Below, piece by piece: positions 15,688 to 22,001 of a stretch of DNA of 22,001 nt. The notes beneath the pieces were generated by a model. That model did not search any database. It had not been told where the DNA came from and saw only the letters and a list, made by a program, of their open reading frames with translations. The stretch covers positions 1-22,001 of the IMG/VR virus record IMGVR_UViG_3300028843_000046. One strand, 5' to 3'. The DNA comes from a virus. The position numbers were made by a program, and so were the translations under genes. The first letter of the stretch is position 1; every line of letters begins with the position of its first letter.

Positions 15688-18600
15688 TTACTGCACCACC
15701 ACAGAGTCCGCCCTACTGGCCGTTGTAACCTCTGTGATGCCAAGCCCTACCACTATAGCTGACGTGCGGCTGCGCACGCCGAACGATGTGTCCACCCTCA
15801 CGCTGATTATCAGGGTAGCCTTAGCGGCGCAGGCCAATTCAGGGGACACTGTATTGCGCGACGATGTCGCAATAGTGGCGGTGGCCCGAGCTACTGCCCT
15901 CATCTCACTGCCCCTGTTGGCTGTGGCTGTGGCTGTGGCTGTGGCTGTGGCTGTGGCCCCTGCTAGCGCCACCATCGTGGCCGTGGCCGTGGCCGTGGCC
16001 GTGGCTGCCGCGGAAGCGACTCTGGAGCTATGTATCCCACCAAGGGGCTGAGCTACCGCTACGGCTACCGCGGTAGTGGCCCCCTCCCTGTACGCGGTGC
16101 CTGATGCTAAGCAGTTGGCTGCTGGCTGGAGTTGGCACGTTGCGTTCTTATGCGCAGTGGGTAGCGGCGAGGTAGCGGCGCTACCGAAGAAGACCGTGGC
16201 CGCGTTGGACGATAGGGCGCCAGTAGGGGTTGCGGACGCCGTGCTGGCTAGCGCAGCCCTGCCCGCCTGCTCACGTGTAGCCGTGGGCCATACCGCAGCC
16301 GTGCTAGCCGCTGAAACCCTTAGCCCGCGAGCCACCACCGCCCAGCCTGCAGCCAAGGCCGCCGCTGCAGGCTGCGTAGCCCCTATCCGGTACGCCGTGG
16401 CCTTGGGCGACAGGGCTGCGACGCCGGTGGTTGTCGCTCTCCCGAACACAAACGCGGAATACGACTCCGCTACCGCGGAAACCAAGGCTGTGCAGGATAC
16501 AAACGCGGCTCCTGCGCGAACCAATATCGCCGCCGCTGTGGCCGCCGCTGTGGCCGCCGCTGTGGCCTTGCCCTGTATCGCGGTGGCTATCGTTATTGTG
16601 GCGGTGGCCTCCATAGAGAAGCTGCTAACTTTCTCGGATACGAACGACACATAGTTCGCGGTAGTGATGTCCCCCGGAATGGTTAAAGGCGTGAAAAGGG
16701 CGTCCCCGACGCTTCTTACATAGTCAGGCACATACAGCATATTGTTGATGCAGAAGGCCCAGTTCATGTCGCTGATGGAGGTGTTCTCTTGCGGGACGCT
16801 GTATGTGTCTGTAGCAAACTCTAGGTCGATCGCGGTGTTCCCGATAACGCACATGCCCCAGTCTGCCAGCTGCGCCCCGGTAGCTCCTGCACCGCCAGGC
16901 TGAGTAGTCGGCACTGATATACTGCCTAGTGCGTAGGTCTTCGTGCTTATTGTGAATTTATCTCCCGCCGTTACGCTGGTGTATGCGCTCCCATCCCATG
17001 TGTACCCCCACAAAAAATGGCCCGCGTCTGGCCCTGTCATGCTAGTGCCTTTCTCGCGCCCTAGCGGCACTACAGCACTAGACACTAGCTGCGACTGCGT
17101 AGCCAAACCCAACTCCTCTATAATCGCTACTGGTATGCCCCCGGTAGGCTCGCGTCCTCCTATCCAGAACCCTGTGTTATCGTCCCTAGTGGCTAGCGAT
17201 ATTGCCCGCGGCCCACTAAGCGTAGCCGATATTAGCTCGTGCACCTCTGTAGCATACACAAGCTGGACCACCTGTGAGTACATAGCGCCGTAATTATATG
17301 TGTACCCACCTGCGTAGTACCCTACCTCCCTGACGCTGTCCTCTATCGGGTCGCTTGGGAACTGAGGAGCAGGAACTGTGCCGTACCCGGCTAGCGACAC
17401 CCTAGACGACCCCACTATGCCATCGAACACTACCGTGTGCGCCTGCCCTGCTGTGCTACCAGAAAACGTGCCCACCATATACACTTTGGACGCCCCCGCT
17501 GGGTAATCCCGCAGTATCGTGTCCACGGTTGCGGTTGCGGTTGCGGTTGCGCGGTTGCGTATCGCGCTTGTGTCGGTTGCCGTGAGCTCTGCTGTGGCCC
17601 GCGCTACGGCGTTGCCTGTCCACACGCCCGCAGTAAGCTCTGCAGGGAGGGCTGCCACAACTGCCGAGGCCGTGCCGGGCAGTGTGGTAGCGCTAGGAGC
17701 GTGGCTCAGCATAGTCCTGCCTAGGTGGCTGTCCATAATAAACGAGTGCGTGAACACCGAGCGGGAGGAGAATATGAGTCCTGTCACCGCGGGACTAGCG
17801 CTGCTACCGTCGGTATCCATCTCGTACGTCTTATCCCCGGAGTACCCAACTGCGCCCGTGTTGAACCCTGTAGCGGGGCGCACTATGGTAACCACGGTAA
17901 CATCGGCGGGCATGTCGTACTCTCCTATGTTCCGGGAGCTGCTCTCTCGGTCAGAGTCATAGAAGTACCCCCTTGGATGGGGCGAAGCCGTGCCGCCTCC
18001 TGCGGTGTTCATAAGCGCACTTGCCAGCTGCCACGCATCTCCTAGCGTAAAGTGTATTTTGTTAAGCTCCGCCCCACCCCCGAAAAACCTAGACGCGTAC
18101 CCGATCGTGGTGGATTGCACAGCGCCGCCGTAGCTTAGGTCGTCCCCAGTTACTGCAGAGGCTACCCTAGCTACCTCGGTAGCGTAGTCTAGCTTCTGTA
18201 TCTTATTCGTCTTCACCCCTGTGCCGGTGGACCCCGCCATCCAATACCCAGCAGTAGGGGAGTACGTAGTAGTTGGCCTGTCCACTTTCTCAGACACCGC
18301 GGCGGCTACATCGACAAAGGTGTCTGTGGCGTACTTAATAGAGTGCATAGACCGCACTAGTTCGTAACTGTTATCGCTCGCGAACTCTCGATTGATACCC
18401 CCGGTCATGTACCCCGCGTACCCCGCGTCTACAGTAGCCAAGTCCCGGGTACGCGTGTTTATCTGTATCGCCGCTACTGGCACATAGGTGTTGCGCAGCG
18501 GCAGTATAACCACTACATCCCCCTGCGGGACTGAGTACTCTATTGGGCTCTTTATCCTGTTAGAGAACGCGTACATGCGCGGCGAGTGCCCCCAGTCCCG

Positions 18601-19317
18601 GGCCACCGCGACCACCACGCGAACGGCCAGCTGCGCTCGCGCTACCATACCTATGACAGGCGGCGGGGCGGGTATTATAGCCGCCCACGATAGCACCCCT
18701 AAACTGCCTGCGGTTGTGAGCCCGACGGAGAGAGCGCTACCTATTGATGTGTTCCACTTGCTCTCTATAACGCTAGAGTACTTACTGCCGGGTATCCCGG
18801 GTATAGGGGTTACTGGGGAAAACGAGGTGTGACGCATCTCCCCTGAAGGCGCTGCGTCAGGGGAGTCTGTGGATATACCACCGCCTATTATTTCCTCGTC
18901 GGTAGCCCGCACATACGCGGTGGGTAGTAGCCCGTTTCCAGTACTTGTGGCTATCTGCACCTGCCTCAGGTTAGGGTCTTTCACGTCGCTATACTCAGAC
19001 AGCGTGGCAGATACCTCTCCGGGATCGCCGCCCCAGTCTATCGCAGTGACTATAGACGCTACTACACCTGTGACGTACGCGGTGTATATAGTGACTCGGT
19101 CGGGAGGAGACACAGTGCTCGTGCCGGTCTGCACCTGCACCACAGGAACCCCGTTGGCGGTAAACGACAGCGGTGTATTGCCCCCCGCCCCATACACCGC
19201 GTACACGATCAGCACATCCGACACCCCGGACATAAACGACTCGAAGCTAAATTGGTAGCTGCTACCGTCCCACACCCCACGAACGTCTAGTAGCCGGGCG
19301 TTCTCTTGGACTGACAT
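15688..19317 (-). CDS. Large tail fibre or adhesin with kelch-like regions and Ala/Thr repeats
   Basis: This is the largest protein in the window, 1209 residues. Residues 1-220 form a beta-rich domain ending in LSWAAIIPAPPP. Residues about 295-545 and 660-890 contain kelch-like units: Gly-pair turns and 'D-x-ATE-x-x-x-x-x-A-x-L' patterns (GYMTGGIN, IQKLDYATEVARVASAV, VYATEVHELISATLSGPRA, GFWIGG). They suggest two beta-propellers. A short Ala-Thr linker (about 590-597) separates them. From about 900 the C-terminus is Ala/Thr/Val low complexity with (AT)n runs, ending near 1209 with a more ordered VVVQ tail. Such kelch-like repeats occur in phage fibre and appendage proteins, so host recognition is the likely role. 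The start ATG follows the upstream stop by one base. No enzymatic motif is apparent. The C-terminal part is encoded by hexamer tandem repeats. Confidence 0.78.
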   Translation of the reverse strand: MSVQENARLLDVRGVWDGSSYQFSFESFMSGVSDVLIVYAVYGAGGNTPLSFTANGVPVVQVQTGTSTVSPPDRVTIYTAYVTGVVASIVTAIDWGGDPGEVSATLSEYSDVKDPNLRQVQIATSTGNGLLPTAYVRATDEEIIGGGISTDSPDAAPSGEMRHTSFSPVTPIPGIPGSKYSSVIESKWNTSIGSALSVGLTTAGSLGVLSWAAIIPAPPPVIGMVARAQLAVRVVVAVARDWGHSPRMYAFSNRIKSPIEYSVPQGDVVVILPLRNTYVPVAAIQINTRTRDLATVDAGYAGYMTGGINREFASDNSYELVRSMHSIKYATDTFVDVAAAVSEKVDRPTTTYSPTAGYWMAGSTGTGVKTNKIQKLDYATEVARVASAVTGDDLSYGGAVQSTTIGYASRFFGGGAELNKIHFTLGDAWQLASALMNTAGGGTASPHPRGYFYDSDRESSSRNIGEYDMPADVTVVTIVRPATGFNTGAVGYSGDKTYEMDTDGSSASPAVTGLIFSSRSVFTHSFIMDSHLGRTMLSHAPSATTLPGTASAVVAALPAELTAGVWTGNAVARATAELTATDTSAIRNRATATATATVDTILRDYPAGASKVYMVGTFSGSTAGQAHTVVFDGIVGSSRVSLAGYGTVPAPQFPSDPIEDSVREVGYYAGGYTYNYGAMYSQVVQLVYATEVHELISATLSGPRAISLATRDDNTGFWIGGREPTGGIPVAIIEELGLATQSQLVSSAVVPLGREKGTSMTGPDAGHFLWGYTWDGSAYTSVTAGDKFTISTKTYALGSISVPTTQPGGAGATGAQLADWGMCVIGNTAIDLEFATDTYSVPQENTSISDMNWAFCINNMLYVPDYVRSVGDALFTPLTIPGDITTANYVSFVSEKVSSFSMEATATITIATAIQGKATAAATAAATAAAILVRAGAAFVSCTALVSAVAESYSAFVFGRATTTGVAALSPKATAYRIGATQPAAAALAAGWAVVARGLRVSAASTAAVWPTATREQAGRAALASTASATPTGALSSNAATVFFGSAATSPLPTAHKNATCQLQPAANCLASGTAYREGATTAVAVAVAQPLGGIHSSRVASAAATATATATATMVALAGATATATATATATANRGSEMRAVARATATIATSSRNTVSPELACAAKATLIISVRVDTSFGVRSRTSAIVVGLGITEVTTASRADSVVVQ
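15921..15956 (-). repeat. Six tandem copies of a CTGTGG hexamer in the fibre gene
   Basis: The plus strand reads ctgtgg six times without interruption (15921-15956), coding for alternating Ala-Thr near residues 1121-1133. Six bases are two codons, so unit gain or loss keeps the frame. Confidence 0.95.
15981..16004 (-). repeat. Four tandem copies of a CCGTGG hexamer in the fibre gene
   Basis: ccgtgg occurs four times (15981-16004), preceded by a one-base variant tcgtgg at 15975-15980. It differs from the 15921-15956 hexamer by one base and encodes another Ala-Thr run (about residues 1105-1112), 24 bases away. Confidence 0.95.
16529..16564 (-). repeat. Three tandem copies of a 12-bp unit in the fibre gene
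   Basis: gccgccgctgtg is repeated three times exactly (16529-16564) and encodes the ATAAATAAATAA stretch at about residues 918-930. It lies at the start of the Ala-rich C-terminal region. Confidence 0.93.
17527..17550 (-). repeat. Four tandem GGTTGC hexamers in the fibre gene linker
   Basis: ggttgc occurs four times (17527-17550) and once more two bases later. It encodes the Ala-Thr linker between the two kelch-like regions (about residues 590-597). The same hexamer appears in the portal gene. Confidence 0.93.
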
Positions 19318-19318
19318 A

Positions 19319-19906
19319 CTACCACTCTATCAGTTTGCGCTTGTCTAGCTCCGCTGTGGCTAGCAGCTCATCCCAGTTGGGCATGTCCGCTCTCATGTTC
19401 GTTAGCGCCTCCGCTGCGCCTCGTATGCCTTGCACGTCTCTGGTGAGCTTCTGCTCGAAGTGTTCCTGCTCCTCCGCCTCAAACTGCTGCCTCGTGTACG
19501 CGGGTATTCTTTTAAACTCCGTGTACATCACGTTGAGGTCGCTAAGCGCGTCGTTCAGTAGTTTGCCGTCCCACGCCTTGCCCTGCTGTAGTTCCTGTAA
19601 GTCTAGCTGTAGTAGCTGCTGGTCGTAGGAGCCCTCCTCCGCCGAGGATATGTTGTCTTTTAGCTGGGCTTCTTTTATCGTCCGTCGCTCTGTTGCGATT
19701 AGGCTAGTCTGGATAGCCCTTATTTTGGACATCATCCCTAGCCCCAAAGTGCGGTACGCCCTTGCTGGGGTTATCTGCCCTGCTACAACAAACGCCCTTG
19801 TCTGGAACGCAGAATTCTCAAAGGGTATGTCGAAGAACGCAGCCTCTATCTCCTCCAGCACGGACACCGCTCGCTCTGGCGTCATTTTAGCGACCCGCGT
19901 ACTCAT
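19319..19906 (-). CDS. Helical virion-module protein of unknown function
   Basis: This 195-residue protein is mainly helical and charged. It has MTPERAVSVLEEIEAAFFDI (about residues 8-27), a middle with RTIKEAQLKDNISSAEEGSY, and a coiled-coil-like stretch (LQLDLQELQQGKAWDGKLLN, about 98-117). The second half is acidic, with RQQFEAEEQEHFEQKLTRDV and then GAAEALTNMRADMPNWDELL. The start ATG overlaps the upstream stop in TGATG. No known domain was recognised. It lies between a small virion protein gene and the fibre gene. It could be a fibre assembly chaperone, a neck factor or a minor tail component; this is inferred from position and helical content only. Confidence 0.62.
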   Translation of the reverse strand: MSTRVAKMTPERAVSVLEEIEAAFFDIPFENSAFQTRAFVVAGQITPARAYRTLGLGMMSKIRAIQTSLIATERRTIKEAQLKDNISSAEEGSYDQQLLQLDLQELQQGKAWDGKLLNDALSDLNVMYTEFKRIPAYTRQQFEAEEQEHFEQKLTRDVQGIRGAAEALTNMRADMPNWDELLATAELDKRKLIEW

Positions 19907-20316
19907 CAGTCTAGGACTACGTCGAAGTCACCCGCGAGGAACTTAAACACGTCGCCCAGCCCTATTGTTTTGGACACCGTCAGGTTAGCCCAATACAGCA
20001 CGTTTACGTCTGTCCCATAGTTGCTGTTTGTGGCGTGGTCTACCAGCGCGACTGTGGTGACCGTGCCCCATGCGCCCGATGCGGTAGGGAACACCACGTC
20101 AGCACTATTGTCTGTGGCCCCGCTTGCCGCTACGTTAAACGCCATCGACTGTCTGGCGTACGCGTTGCCCACAAGTTCAGAAACCGGGGCGTTAGCCTCC
20201 AGCCCAGAGCTAGCGGTGAACAGCGCTACGTACAGCGTGCCCGGAGGGGTGTATATGGTGTTCCTCAGCGTGTGGTTCAGCAGTTTATTCTCTAAATAGT
20301 CTGAAAATGCGGTCAT
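19906..20316 (-). CDS. Small beta-rich virion protein
   Basis: This 136-residue protein begins MTAFSDYLENKLLNHTLRNT, then YTPPGTLYVALFTASSG. It continues with GNAYARQSMAFNVAASGATD, VVFPTASGAWGTVTTVALVD and LTVSKTIGLGDVFKFLAGDF. This order (short helix, YVALFT, YARQ, FPTA..WGTVT, LT.SKT, G.FLAGD) is a frequent small phage protein family found in tail and fibre clusters. Members are annotated variously as tail or head fibre proteins. A jelly-roll-like beta fold is likely. The ribosome site AGGA is 7 bases before the ATG. The stop overlaps the next start. It probably joins the fibre or appendage assembly. Confidence 0.75.
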   Translation of the reverse strand: MTAFSDYLENKLLNHTLRNTIYTPPGTLYVALFTASSGLEANAPVSELVGNAYARQSMAFNVAASGATDNSADVVFPTASGAWGTVTTVALVDHATNSNYGTDVNVLYWANLTVSKTIGLGDVFKFLAGDFDVVLD

Positions 20317-20325
20317 TGGTATGTC

Positions 20326-20931
20326 CTATCTCGTTGTCTCTCGGTTGATTTTAACTGTGCCTTCCATAAGGCGGAAAACCTCGTTTGTCGGGGCCACCAG
20401 CTCTAGGTCGTACACCCCAGAACGCATAGTAAGGGCCTCGGTAACATCGTCCGCTATAACAATGGCGATTGTCTTTTCTGCTTGGTCTATAACTATGGCC
20501 CCGCTTCCGCTGGTTAGGGTCACCTCGGCCACAGTAGACGCTTTAGACTTGCGGATGGTCATACGTGCGGTGAACCCTGTTAGATCCACAGGTTCCCTGT
20601 ACCGTACGTACCCGCCGCTCTCGTACCCTGTGTACAAAGAAGCGTCCACGAACGGAAGCACTATGCTGTTCGCGTCTACCGCTTCGGCAGGAGTGTACAA
20701 GTGTAGCTTCTTGGGGTCGGCGATGTTTATCTCAGCCATGCCCCTTACACTGACTATCGCCACTGGCCACCCCTCTGGTATCCCATGCGAAGGCACAGTT
20801 ATCGCGACCGGGGCGACTTGGGCGATGTCAGTTATCGCCTTGAACACCGGCACCCCGGTATCCCATCTGATCGTCCTAGTGAACGTAGCGCCCTGTAGGA
20901 CTACTATGTTCTCTATTAGTGGTATCGCCAT
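20326..20931 (-). CDS. Tail or appendage structural protein with beta-sandwich domain
   Basis: This 201-residue protein begins MAIPLIENIVVLQGATFTRT. The segment PVDLTGFTARMTIRKSKAST is followed by a charged hairpin. The C-terminal region (LTMRSGVYDLELVAPTNEVF, then MEGTVKINRETTR) fits a common phage domain in which 'DLTG..ARMTIR ... SGVYDLEL ... R.L.G.V.I....TR' defines a beta-sandwich found near tail fibres and baseplates. The ribosome site AGGTG lies upstream of the ATG, one base after the upstream stop. It probably connects appendages or serves as a minor tail protein. The exact role is unknown. Confidence 0.72.
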   Translation of the reverse strand: MAIPLIENIVVLQGATFTRTIRWDTGVPVFKAITDIAQVAPVAITVPSHGIPEGWPVAIVSVRGMAEINIADPKKLHLYTPAEAVDANSIVLPFVDASLYTGYESGGYVRYREPVDLTGFTARMTIRKSKASTVAEVTLTSGSGAIVIDQAEKTIAIVIADDVTEALTMRSGVYDLELVAPTNEVFRLMEGTVKINRETTR

Positions 20932-20932
20932 G

Positions 20933-22001
20933 TTAGATCACCTTGAGGTTGTCGCGTGCGTTATCTACGCGTATGATATAGGAGACGGAGTTGCTTTGCA
21001 CGGTATATCCGGCCACCACTGACACCGCCGCGCCCTCTGGCCCGCGGCTATGTGCCTCGCTACCGTCTGCGAAAACCCGCACTGTGCTTCTCCACTTGTC
21101 TATATTCGCGGTCACTTTTGGAGATATGTCCTGCCTCGTACTAACTAACACTAGCACCTGCGGGACAGGGGTGACTCTAGTCGCCAAGAGCGACTGCGGT
21201 GTCCCTTCTACTACTAAGACCGCGTTGTCTTTCTGCGCTACCTGCGAGTCCGTGTTCGCCCGCACCGCCTGCGGCGTCTCGACCAGCGTAAGCGTGGCGG
21301 GGGTTTGTAACACTCCCTCTTCTTGGGTAACCTGCTGCTGAGGCGCTACCAGCGTAAGCGTGGCGGGGGTTTGGGCGATTATAGTATCTATCCCAGCGCG
21401 TATATTCTGCCTGTGCCCCACCAACAATAGACCAGTCAGCCCTTGGGCTACCGTGGTATCCGTGTCCGCCTTAACAGCCTGCCTTGTTAGCCCTACCAAC
21501 AACGCGTCTGGGGTCTGGCCCACTACAGCGTCGGCATCTGCTTTTACGAGTTGCCCCGTGGCCGTCAGTGATAGCGAGCTCTCTACCTGCGCCACCACCA
21601 CGTCGGTGTCAGCCTTGACAGTCTGCCCTGTTGTACCTAGCACCAGTGAGTCCGCGCTCTGGCCCACCAGCGAATCCATATCCGCCCGCACCGCTTGTTG
21701 CGTGGTGCTTACCACTAGCGCGTCTAGGGTCTGAGATACCTGCGTGTCTATGTCCGCTCGCACCTGCTGGGTGACCCCCGCCAGAACCAACGACGCGTTC
21801 GTGTTCTGCTCCGCTACGTTATCAAACCCGGCGGATACTGTCTGCTTCTCCTCAACGATAACCAAACCCGCCGGGCTCTGCAAAACATCGGTGTTCACCT
21901 CCGCCTGTACCGACTGCGCGGTGGTAGCCAGCACCAGTGAGTCCGTGCTCTGGCCTACCTGCGTGTCTGTGTCTGCCTGTACCGACTGCGCGGTGGTAGC
22001 C
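20933..22001 (-). CDS. Repeat protein, partial (5' end beyond right edge)
   Basis: The frame is open to the right edge. A GTG at 21934 is inside it, but the repeats continue upstream in frame, so the true start lies beyond 22001. Visible are about 355 residues. Twelve units of 22-25 residues follow a pattern Q-x-V-x-A-D-x-D-x-x-V-x-Q-x-x-D-x-L-x-L (for example QAVKADTDTTVAQ and QTVKADTDVVVAQ). A non-repeat C-terminal domain of about 69 residues follows (WRSTVRVFADGSEAHSRGPE, then YIIRVDNARDNLKVI). The alternating pattern suggests short beta strands stacked into a fibre, stalk or solenoid. Position upstream of fibre genes suggests a virion appendage. The stop is one base from the next start. 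Confidence 0.72.
   Translation of the reverse strand, partial: ATTAQSVQADTDTQVGQSTDSLVLATTAQSVQAEVNTDVLQSPAGLVIVEEKQTVSAGFDNVAEQNTNASLVLAGVTQQVRADIDTQVSQTLDALVVSTTQQAVRADMDSLVGQSADSLVLGTTGQTVKADTDVVVAQVESSLSLTATGQLVKADADAVVGQTPDALLVGLTRQAVKADTDTTVAQGLTGLLLVGHRQNIRAGIDTIIAQTPATLTLVAPQQQVTQEEGVLQTPATLTLVETPQAVRANTDSQVAQKDNAVLVVEGTPQSLLATRVTPVPQVLVLVSTRQDISPKVTANIDKWRSTVRVFADGSEAHSRGPEGAAVSVVAGYTVQSNSVSYIIRVDNARDNLKVI
21143..22001 (-). repeat. 72-bp-period repeat array in the partial repeat protein gene
   Basis: Twelve units of about 72 bases are seen and the array continues past the edge. A 27-base string (gcctgtaccgactgcgcggt and 7 more bases) is exact at 21903-21929 and 21975-22001, spaced 72. 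A 26-base string starting accagcgtaagcg is exact at 21282-21307 and 21348-21373, spaced 66. Other units are diverged, so the array mixes old and recent duplications. Confidence 0.93.

Follow-up and report, generated by a model that had tools for sequence, protein, structure and literature searches.

The closest described counterparts of the locus examined here are the LtfC–LtfA pair of T5 and DT57C and the adaptor gp77 of podophage GP4, where, as in the present locus, a small beta-rich adaptor gene lies beside a possible binding partner. In the T5-like phage DT57C, LtfC is arranged as a dodecameric ring. Strands of the fibre protein LtfA add to its beta-sheets, and the LtfA chains lie lasso-like around this ring (PMC10713586). 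LtfA trimerises through a coiled-coil helix and, unlike the protein discussed below, is not described as having a 24-residue array. The adaptor encoded here is also longer (201 residues) than those of T5, DT57C and GP4.

It is already known that cultured phages carry arrays of short repeats in minor tail proteins, and members of the class considered here, which has no name and is referred to by its motif SLTLTGxAPTV, are annotated as such in mycobacteriophages and Gordonia phages. In our searches these repeats had neither a Pfam entry nor a solved structure and were hardly covered by PHROGs, and a literature search returned no relevant paper naming the motif. The minor tail protein of the mycobacteriophages Yoshi, Avani and Kersh (phrog_553) and the Gordonia phage proteins Gibbles gp37 and Kampe gp39 resemble the present one in their short beta-type units, hydrophobic spacing and location in a tail-gene cluster. 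These actinobacteriophage arrays differ from it in that the units are about 20–25 residues long and carry GGQP or YAPT motifs where the present ones have TTxQxV, the terminal domains are different, and the neighbouring gene belongs to phrog_644 and is not LtfC-like. The number of units is about 5 in the mycobacteriophages and 11–12 in the Gordonia phages, compared to about 12 visible here. Tandem repeats have also been studied as a hotspot of evolution in crAss-like phages, but the repeated elements there are whole BACON domains (PMC6949934) rather than 24-residue units.

In the present work, we analyse a window of 22,001 bases, which is the entire viral record IMGVR_UViG_3300028843_000046. 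We conclude that its terminal repeat gene probably encodes a virion connector or stalk, with a C-terminal tail docking near the adaptor and a middle part that has been enlarged by beta-strand repeats.

The repeat-array gene (20933..22001, minus strand) is an open frame running from 22001 to a stop codon at 20933–20935, with 355 residues visible. Since the window is the whole record, position 22001 is a contig edge and the gene is truncated at its 5′ end; as an earlier note on this DNA had stated, the frame remains open up to the edge, and no 5′ end is encountered before it. The array itself (21158..22001, minus strand) was delimited by self-similarity and unit-pattern matches and consists of about 12 units, ten of which are clear and one or two degenerate, with a partial one at the contig edge. 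The units are mostly 24 residues long, with exceptions of 22 and 25, and follow the consensus [AS]LVLxTTxQxV[KR]ADTDxxVAQxPD, with variable residues at the exposed positions. The protein has a sharp self-similarity peak at lag 24 (mean BLOSUM62 score 1.08), with echoes at 48 and 72; no lag scored above 0.041 in any of 1000 shuffles. This peak and the unit count bear out the earlier claim of at least twelve 24-residue repeats. When the unit is written as a degenerate DNA pattern, it has six in-frame matches in the gene and none in shuffles. Reading the region on the plus strand, where open frames are short and interrupted, was rejected.

All main genes of the window share the minus strand. The array gene is followed, in order, by an LtfC-like protein, a gp80 homologue, a 195-residue protein, a 1209-residue protein and a head-closure-like protein, and beyond the latter, on the same strand, several unknowns followed by portal-like, scaffold, capsid and adaptor-like genes. 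This is a podophage-type structural block. The gene that directly adjoins the array gene, as would be expected in a tail-fibre attachment module, encodes a 201-residue LtfC-like beta-sandwich protein (20326..20931, minus strand), presumed to be the fibre-tail adaptor. It matches PHROG 1084 (E=4e-25) and chain M of PDB entry 26dk, a solved ‘Structural protein’ (E=4e-29), and also Pfam PF23926 (LtfC), in that case with an E-value of 0.0011 that falls below Pfam's cut-off. The following gene (19906..20316, minus strand) is a homologue of the podophage GP4 fibre I protein gp80 (PF23140, E=3e-37; PDB 8jou, E=1e-10), and after it comes the 195-residue protein (19319..19906, minus strand; PHROG 1409). 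The 1209-residue protein (15688..19317, minus strand) carries the second repeat of the window, an Ala/Thr-rich one of 20 residues that is degenerate and lies close to the C-terminus; it also contains YATE/GGY-type motifs, and exact 6-base DNA repeats are found at 15918–15957 and 15976–16005.

Repeat proteins are common next to gp80 in other phages as well. The gene directly after gp80 has a significant periodicity of 20 or 40 residues in 38 of 39 gp80-bearing loci (L002–L081), many of which are near-identical so that the effective number is smaller, compared to 9 of 329 other open frames. Array proteins thus seem to be a regular part of the fibre module. As separate observations, long open frames with 47-residue repeats (GTARYGLAAASYGGDKAIFGYG...) are present in L046, L055 and L056, from other phages, near gp80 and a 20-residue array, and phrog_644 and the gp80 family (phrog_240) may be related to each other (HHalign E=2e-4, probability 43%).

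We now consider the corresponding locus in a related phage. Relatives were retrieved by a capsid search, and the nearest one found, called G001 (contig L270), has a capsid protein that is 90% identical. It keeps the order of the adaptor (65% identical), gp80 (59%) and the 195-residue protein (48%). The counterpart of the 1209-residue protein has 1288 residues and is only 23% identical, compared to 48–65% for its neighbours, which shows this protein to be fast-evolving. Directly upstream of the adaptor, G001 encodes a protein of only 117 residues (L270:8480-8833), the C-terminus of which resembles the last 24 residues of the repeat protein (YTVQSNSVSYIIRVDNARDNLKVI; 20936..21007, minus strand), with 13 of 24 positions identical (54%; E=2e-4 for two sequences). 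At the DNA level, the alignment between the two phages (66.8%) extends from the adaptor gene into the final ~50 bases of the repeat gene. From the shared gene order and the similar tail it follows that the array occupies a slot that in G001 holds a small protein. In contrast to the repeat protein, the 117-residue protein has no repeat units that a profile search could detect, and the possibility that it consists of three degenerate units was rejected because the profile scores were no better than those of shuffles.

Proteins resembling the first 38 residues of the 117-residue protein are present in L277 (55%) and L278 (58%), phages that seem different in other respects. In L277, the gene after this small protein matches the Pfam family Gp77, ‘podophage GP4 fiber-tail adaptor’ (E=9e-13). 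What precedes the small slot protein and the adaptor differs between the related contigs L277 and L278 (L277:1515-4306 and L278:2737-4306): one has a large gene for a long array protein, the other three small genes, and the genes that follow are conserved in both contigs.

Close relatives of the array itself were not found. Neither the protein nor a synthetic consensus, used as BLAST or tblastn query, matched a relative in isolates, plasmids, viral contigs or bacterial and archaeal genomes; a protein search of the bacterial and archaeal genomes gave no prophage relatives either, and the DNA pattern QxV[KR]ADxDxxVxQ gave nine single matches in which no array could be recognised. A more distant likeness was obtained with the motif SLTLTGxAPTV, which as a DNA-pattern query returned 63 viral stretches, many of them with arrays of 20, 22 or 24 residues. 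In IMG/VR contigs (L098–L160) the pattern of the class is SLTLTGxAPTVxxxxxxxVxPxxG. These arrays are like the present one in being multi-unit, in having a period of 24 in many cases and an identical register, and in being located in structural gene blocks. They are unlike it in that several have LamG or other N-terminal domains and most are not beside a recognisable LtfC-like gene. In two loci, arrays of the class precede genes that weakly match PHROG 1084 (E=0.006–0.007), and among the small proteins downstream of other arrays, four of six have no match to any adaptor family.

The window array has the period of 24 and the hydrophobic residues at positions 2, 4, 11 and 19 that were taken to define the class. 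Its unit profile aligns to that of the 24-residue arrays without gaps and in the same register with a score of 17.9, compared to at most about 12.4 for 260 column-permuted controls and 10.2 for the reversed profile, and when the window units are rotated, each of the five resulting versions returns to one identical offset. HHalign gives a probability of 18% (P=0.0014) for window units against the class, and the match of the window profile to the array of L157 is weak (E=0.67). At position 9, the window units have Gln where the class has a conserved Pro. Taken at the level of sequence, these comparisons support a repeat design shared with the SLTLTGxAPTV class, while descent is not proven at an HHalign probability of 18%.

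Next, the history of the array at the DNA level is considered. On the minus strand there is an exact 27-base repeat with copies at 21975..22001 and 21903..21929, spaced by 72 bases, and an exact direct repeat of 26 bases at 21348..21373 and 21282..21307, spaced by 66. The earlier note had reported exact repeats of this size at these spacings, and they are confirmed in the sequence. In 300 versions of the gene in which synonymous codons were permuted with the protein unchanged, no 26-base repeat arose, the longest being 20. The suggestion of recent duplication at the DNA level therefore stands in so far as the exact repeats exceed these controls, but it does not extend to clean whole units, the identity being patchy. 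The unit at the edge has 15 residues identical to its neighbour, but only 10 of 24 codons, which indicates short copied patches and not clean, recent duplications of entire units. Copying of units as short DNA tracts thus fits better than recent whole-unit duplication; within the gene, these patches would be copied via slippage or gene conversion.

It is worth pointing out that the final base of the 27-base repeat is also that of the contig (position 22001), so the identity may extend past the edge, and the contig break itself may have been caused by the repeat. This coincidence could also suggest that part of the array was created by the assembly at the contig edge. Such an explanation is extremely unlikely, as any effect would be limited to the terminal partial unit, and collapsed or duplicated reads are impossible for the other units because these differ in sequence and codons.

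According to the earlier note, the length of the array could change by recombination. Between the window and G001, the same slot contains an array in one phage and no detectable array in the other, and L153 differs from L131/L135 by four whole 22-residue units, the longest local DNA alignments being about 78–90% identical. A copy number fixed across all relatives was accordingly not found. On the other hand, the number is fixed in nine mycobacteriophages with proteins of 310–315 residues (six of these were aligned, at 51–100% identity), and constant in two Gordonia phage lineages and four L102-like contigs. The capacity to change length is thus seen in some groups and not in others, and recombination would be its route. 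The arrays of the Gordonia phages Gibbles and Kampe align nearly gap-free, and their C-terminal domains are different. In another Gordonia phage, Orchid (L171:1417-3063), the array gene has an in-frame stop where Kampe reads through, and the annotated start is later.

AlphaFold monomer models of the repeat protein are all-beta, each unit contributing about two strands, but of low confidence, both with a 13-row alignment (pLDDT 55) and with a single sequence (pLDDT 49). Fold searches with both models gave no structural match at E < 0.001. The earlier statement that the fold cannot be named with confidence therefore holds, and a globular enzyme is not what these low-confidence models suggest. 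The only Pfam match, to M12 peptidase, is far below the cut-off (E=0.045), and a PDB match to an OprJ-like protein (E=0.0034) was judged to be due to repeats or composition. With no family match, no globular match and all-beta models of low confidence, an enzyme is unlikely.

Based on these results, we propose that the repeat gene would encode a structural protein of the virion that belongs to the fibre-attachment module of a podophage-type tailed phage. Its 24-residue C-terminal tail would probably dock on or near the neighbouring LtfC-like adaptor, and its middle, expanded by 24-residue units with predicted beta-strands, at least 12 in number, would form an extended stalk or spacer, the reach of which may be set by the number of units. 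The original reading as a stalk or fibre is in this way supported by the adaptor and fibre I genes downstream and by the class repeats in the ‘minor tail proteins’ of cultured phages.

Repeats in phage fibres can also be adhesive, and the array could instead be the distal, receptor-contacting part of a fibre, the units themselves forming a varied adhesive surface and not a spacer. The window units do vary at exposed positions, and array proteins of other phages bear LamG lectin domains, some arrays in viral contigs even beginning with one. However, arrays of cultured phages join distinct terminal domains, as a spacer would (in the Gibbles/Kampe pair the C-terminal domain differs), and here the C-terminal end of the array adjoins the adaptor gene, so that we consider an adhesive role unlikely. 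Even less can be said for a fibre decorating the head or capsid rather than belonging to the tail. Head genes are present in the same block and PHROGs label gp80-like proteins (phrog_240) ‘head protein’, but the Pfam name of the gp80 homologue is that of fibre I in podophage GP4, and adaptors of the LtfC and gp77 kinds are fibre-tail adaptors, which makes this assignment quite improbable.

The strand donation from LtfA to the LtfC sheets and its lasso-like course in DT57C (PMC10713586) raise another option, namely that the array is a multivalent docking tether wrapping the adaptor ring, with units donating strands to successive adaptor subunits. The fusion of the array to a tail common to the small same-slot protein is in line with this, but G001 manages with no detectable units, and we regard such a tether as very unlikely. 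A broader scheme can be formulated, in which a small fibre-attachment protein becomes a long fibre by expansion of 24-residue units, each donating a strand to an adaptor subunit, and the number of units tunes reach or valency across unrelated podophages and siphophages. It is decidedly speculative, and we give it little credence.

SLTLTGxAPTV-type repeats are a very common and widespread class of phage structural repeats, and the present locus ties one version of the class to a fibre-tail adaptor. Together with G001 it constitutes a natural pair, two related phages of which only one has a detectable array in this gene slot, and this makes it testable whether the length of the array sets fibre reach or host attachment.
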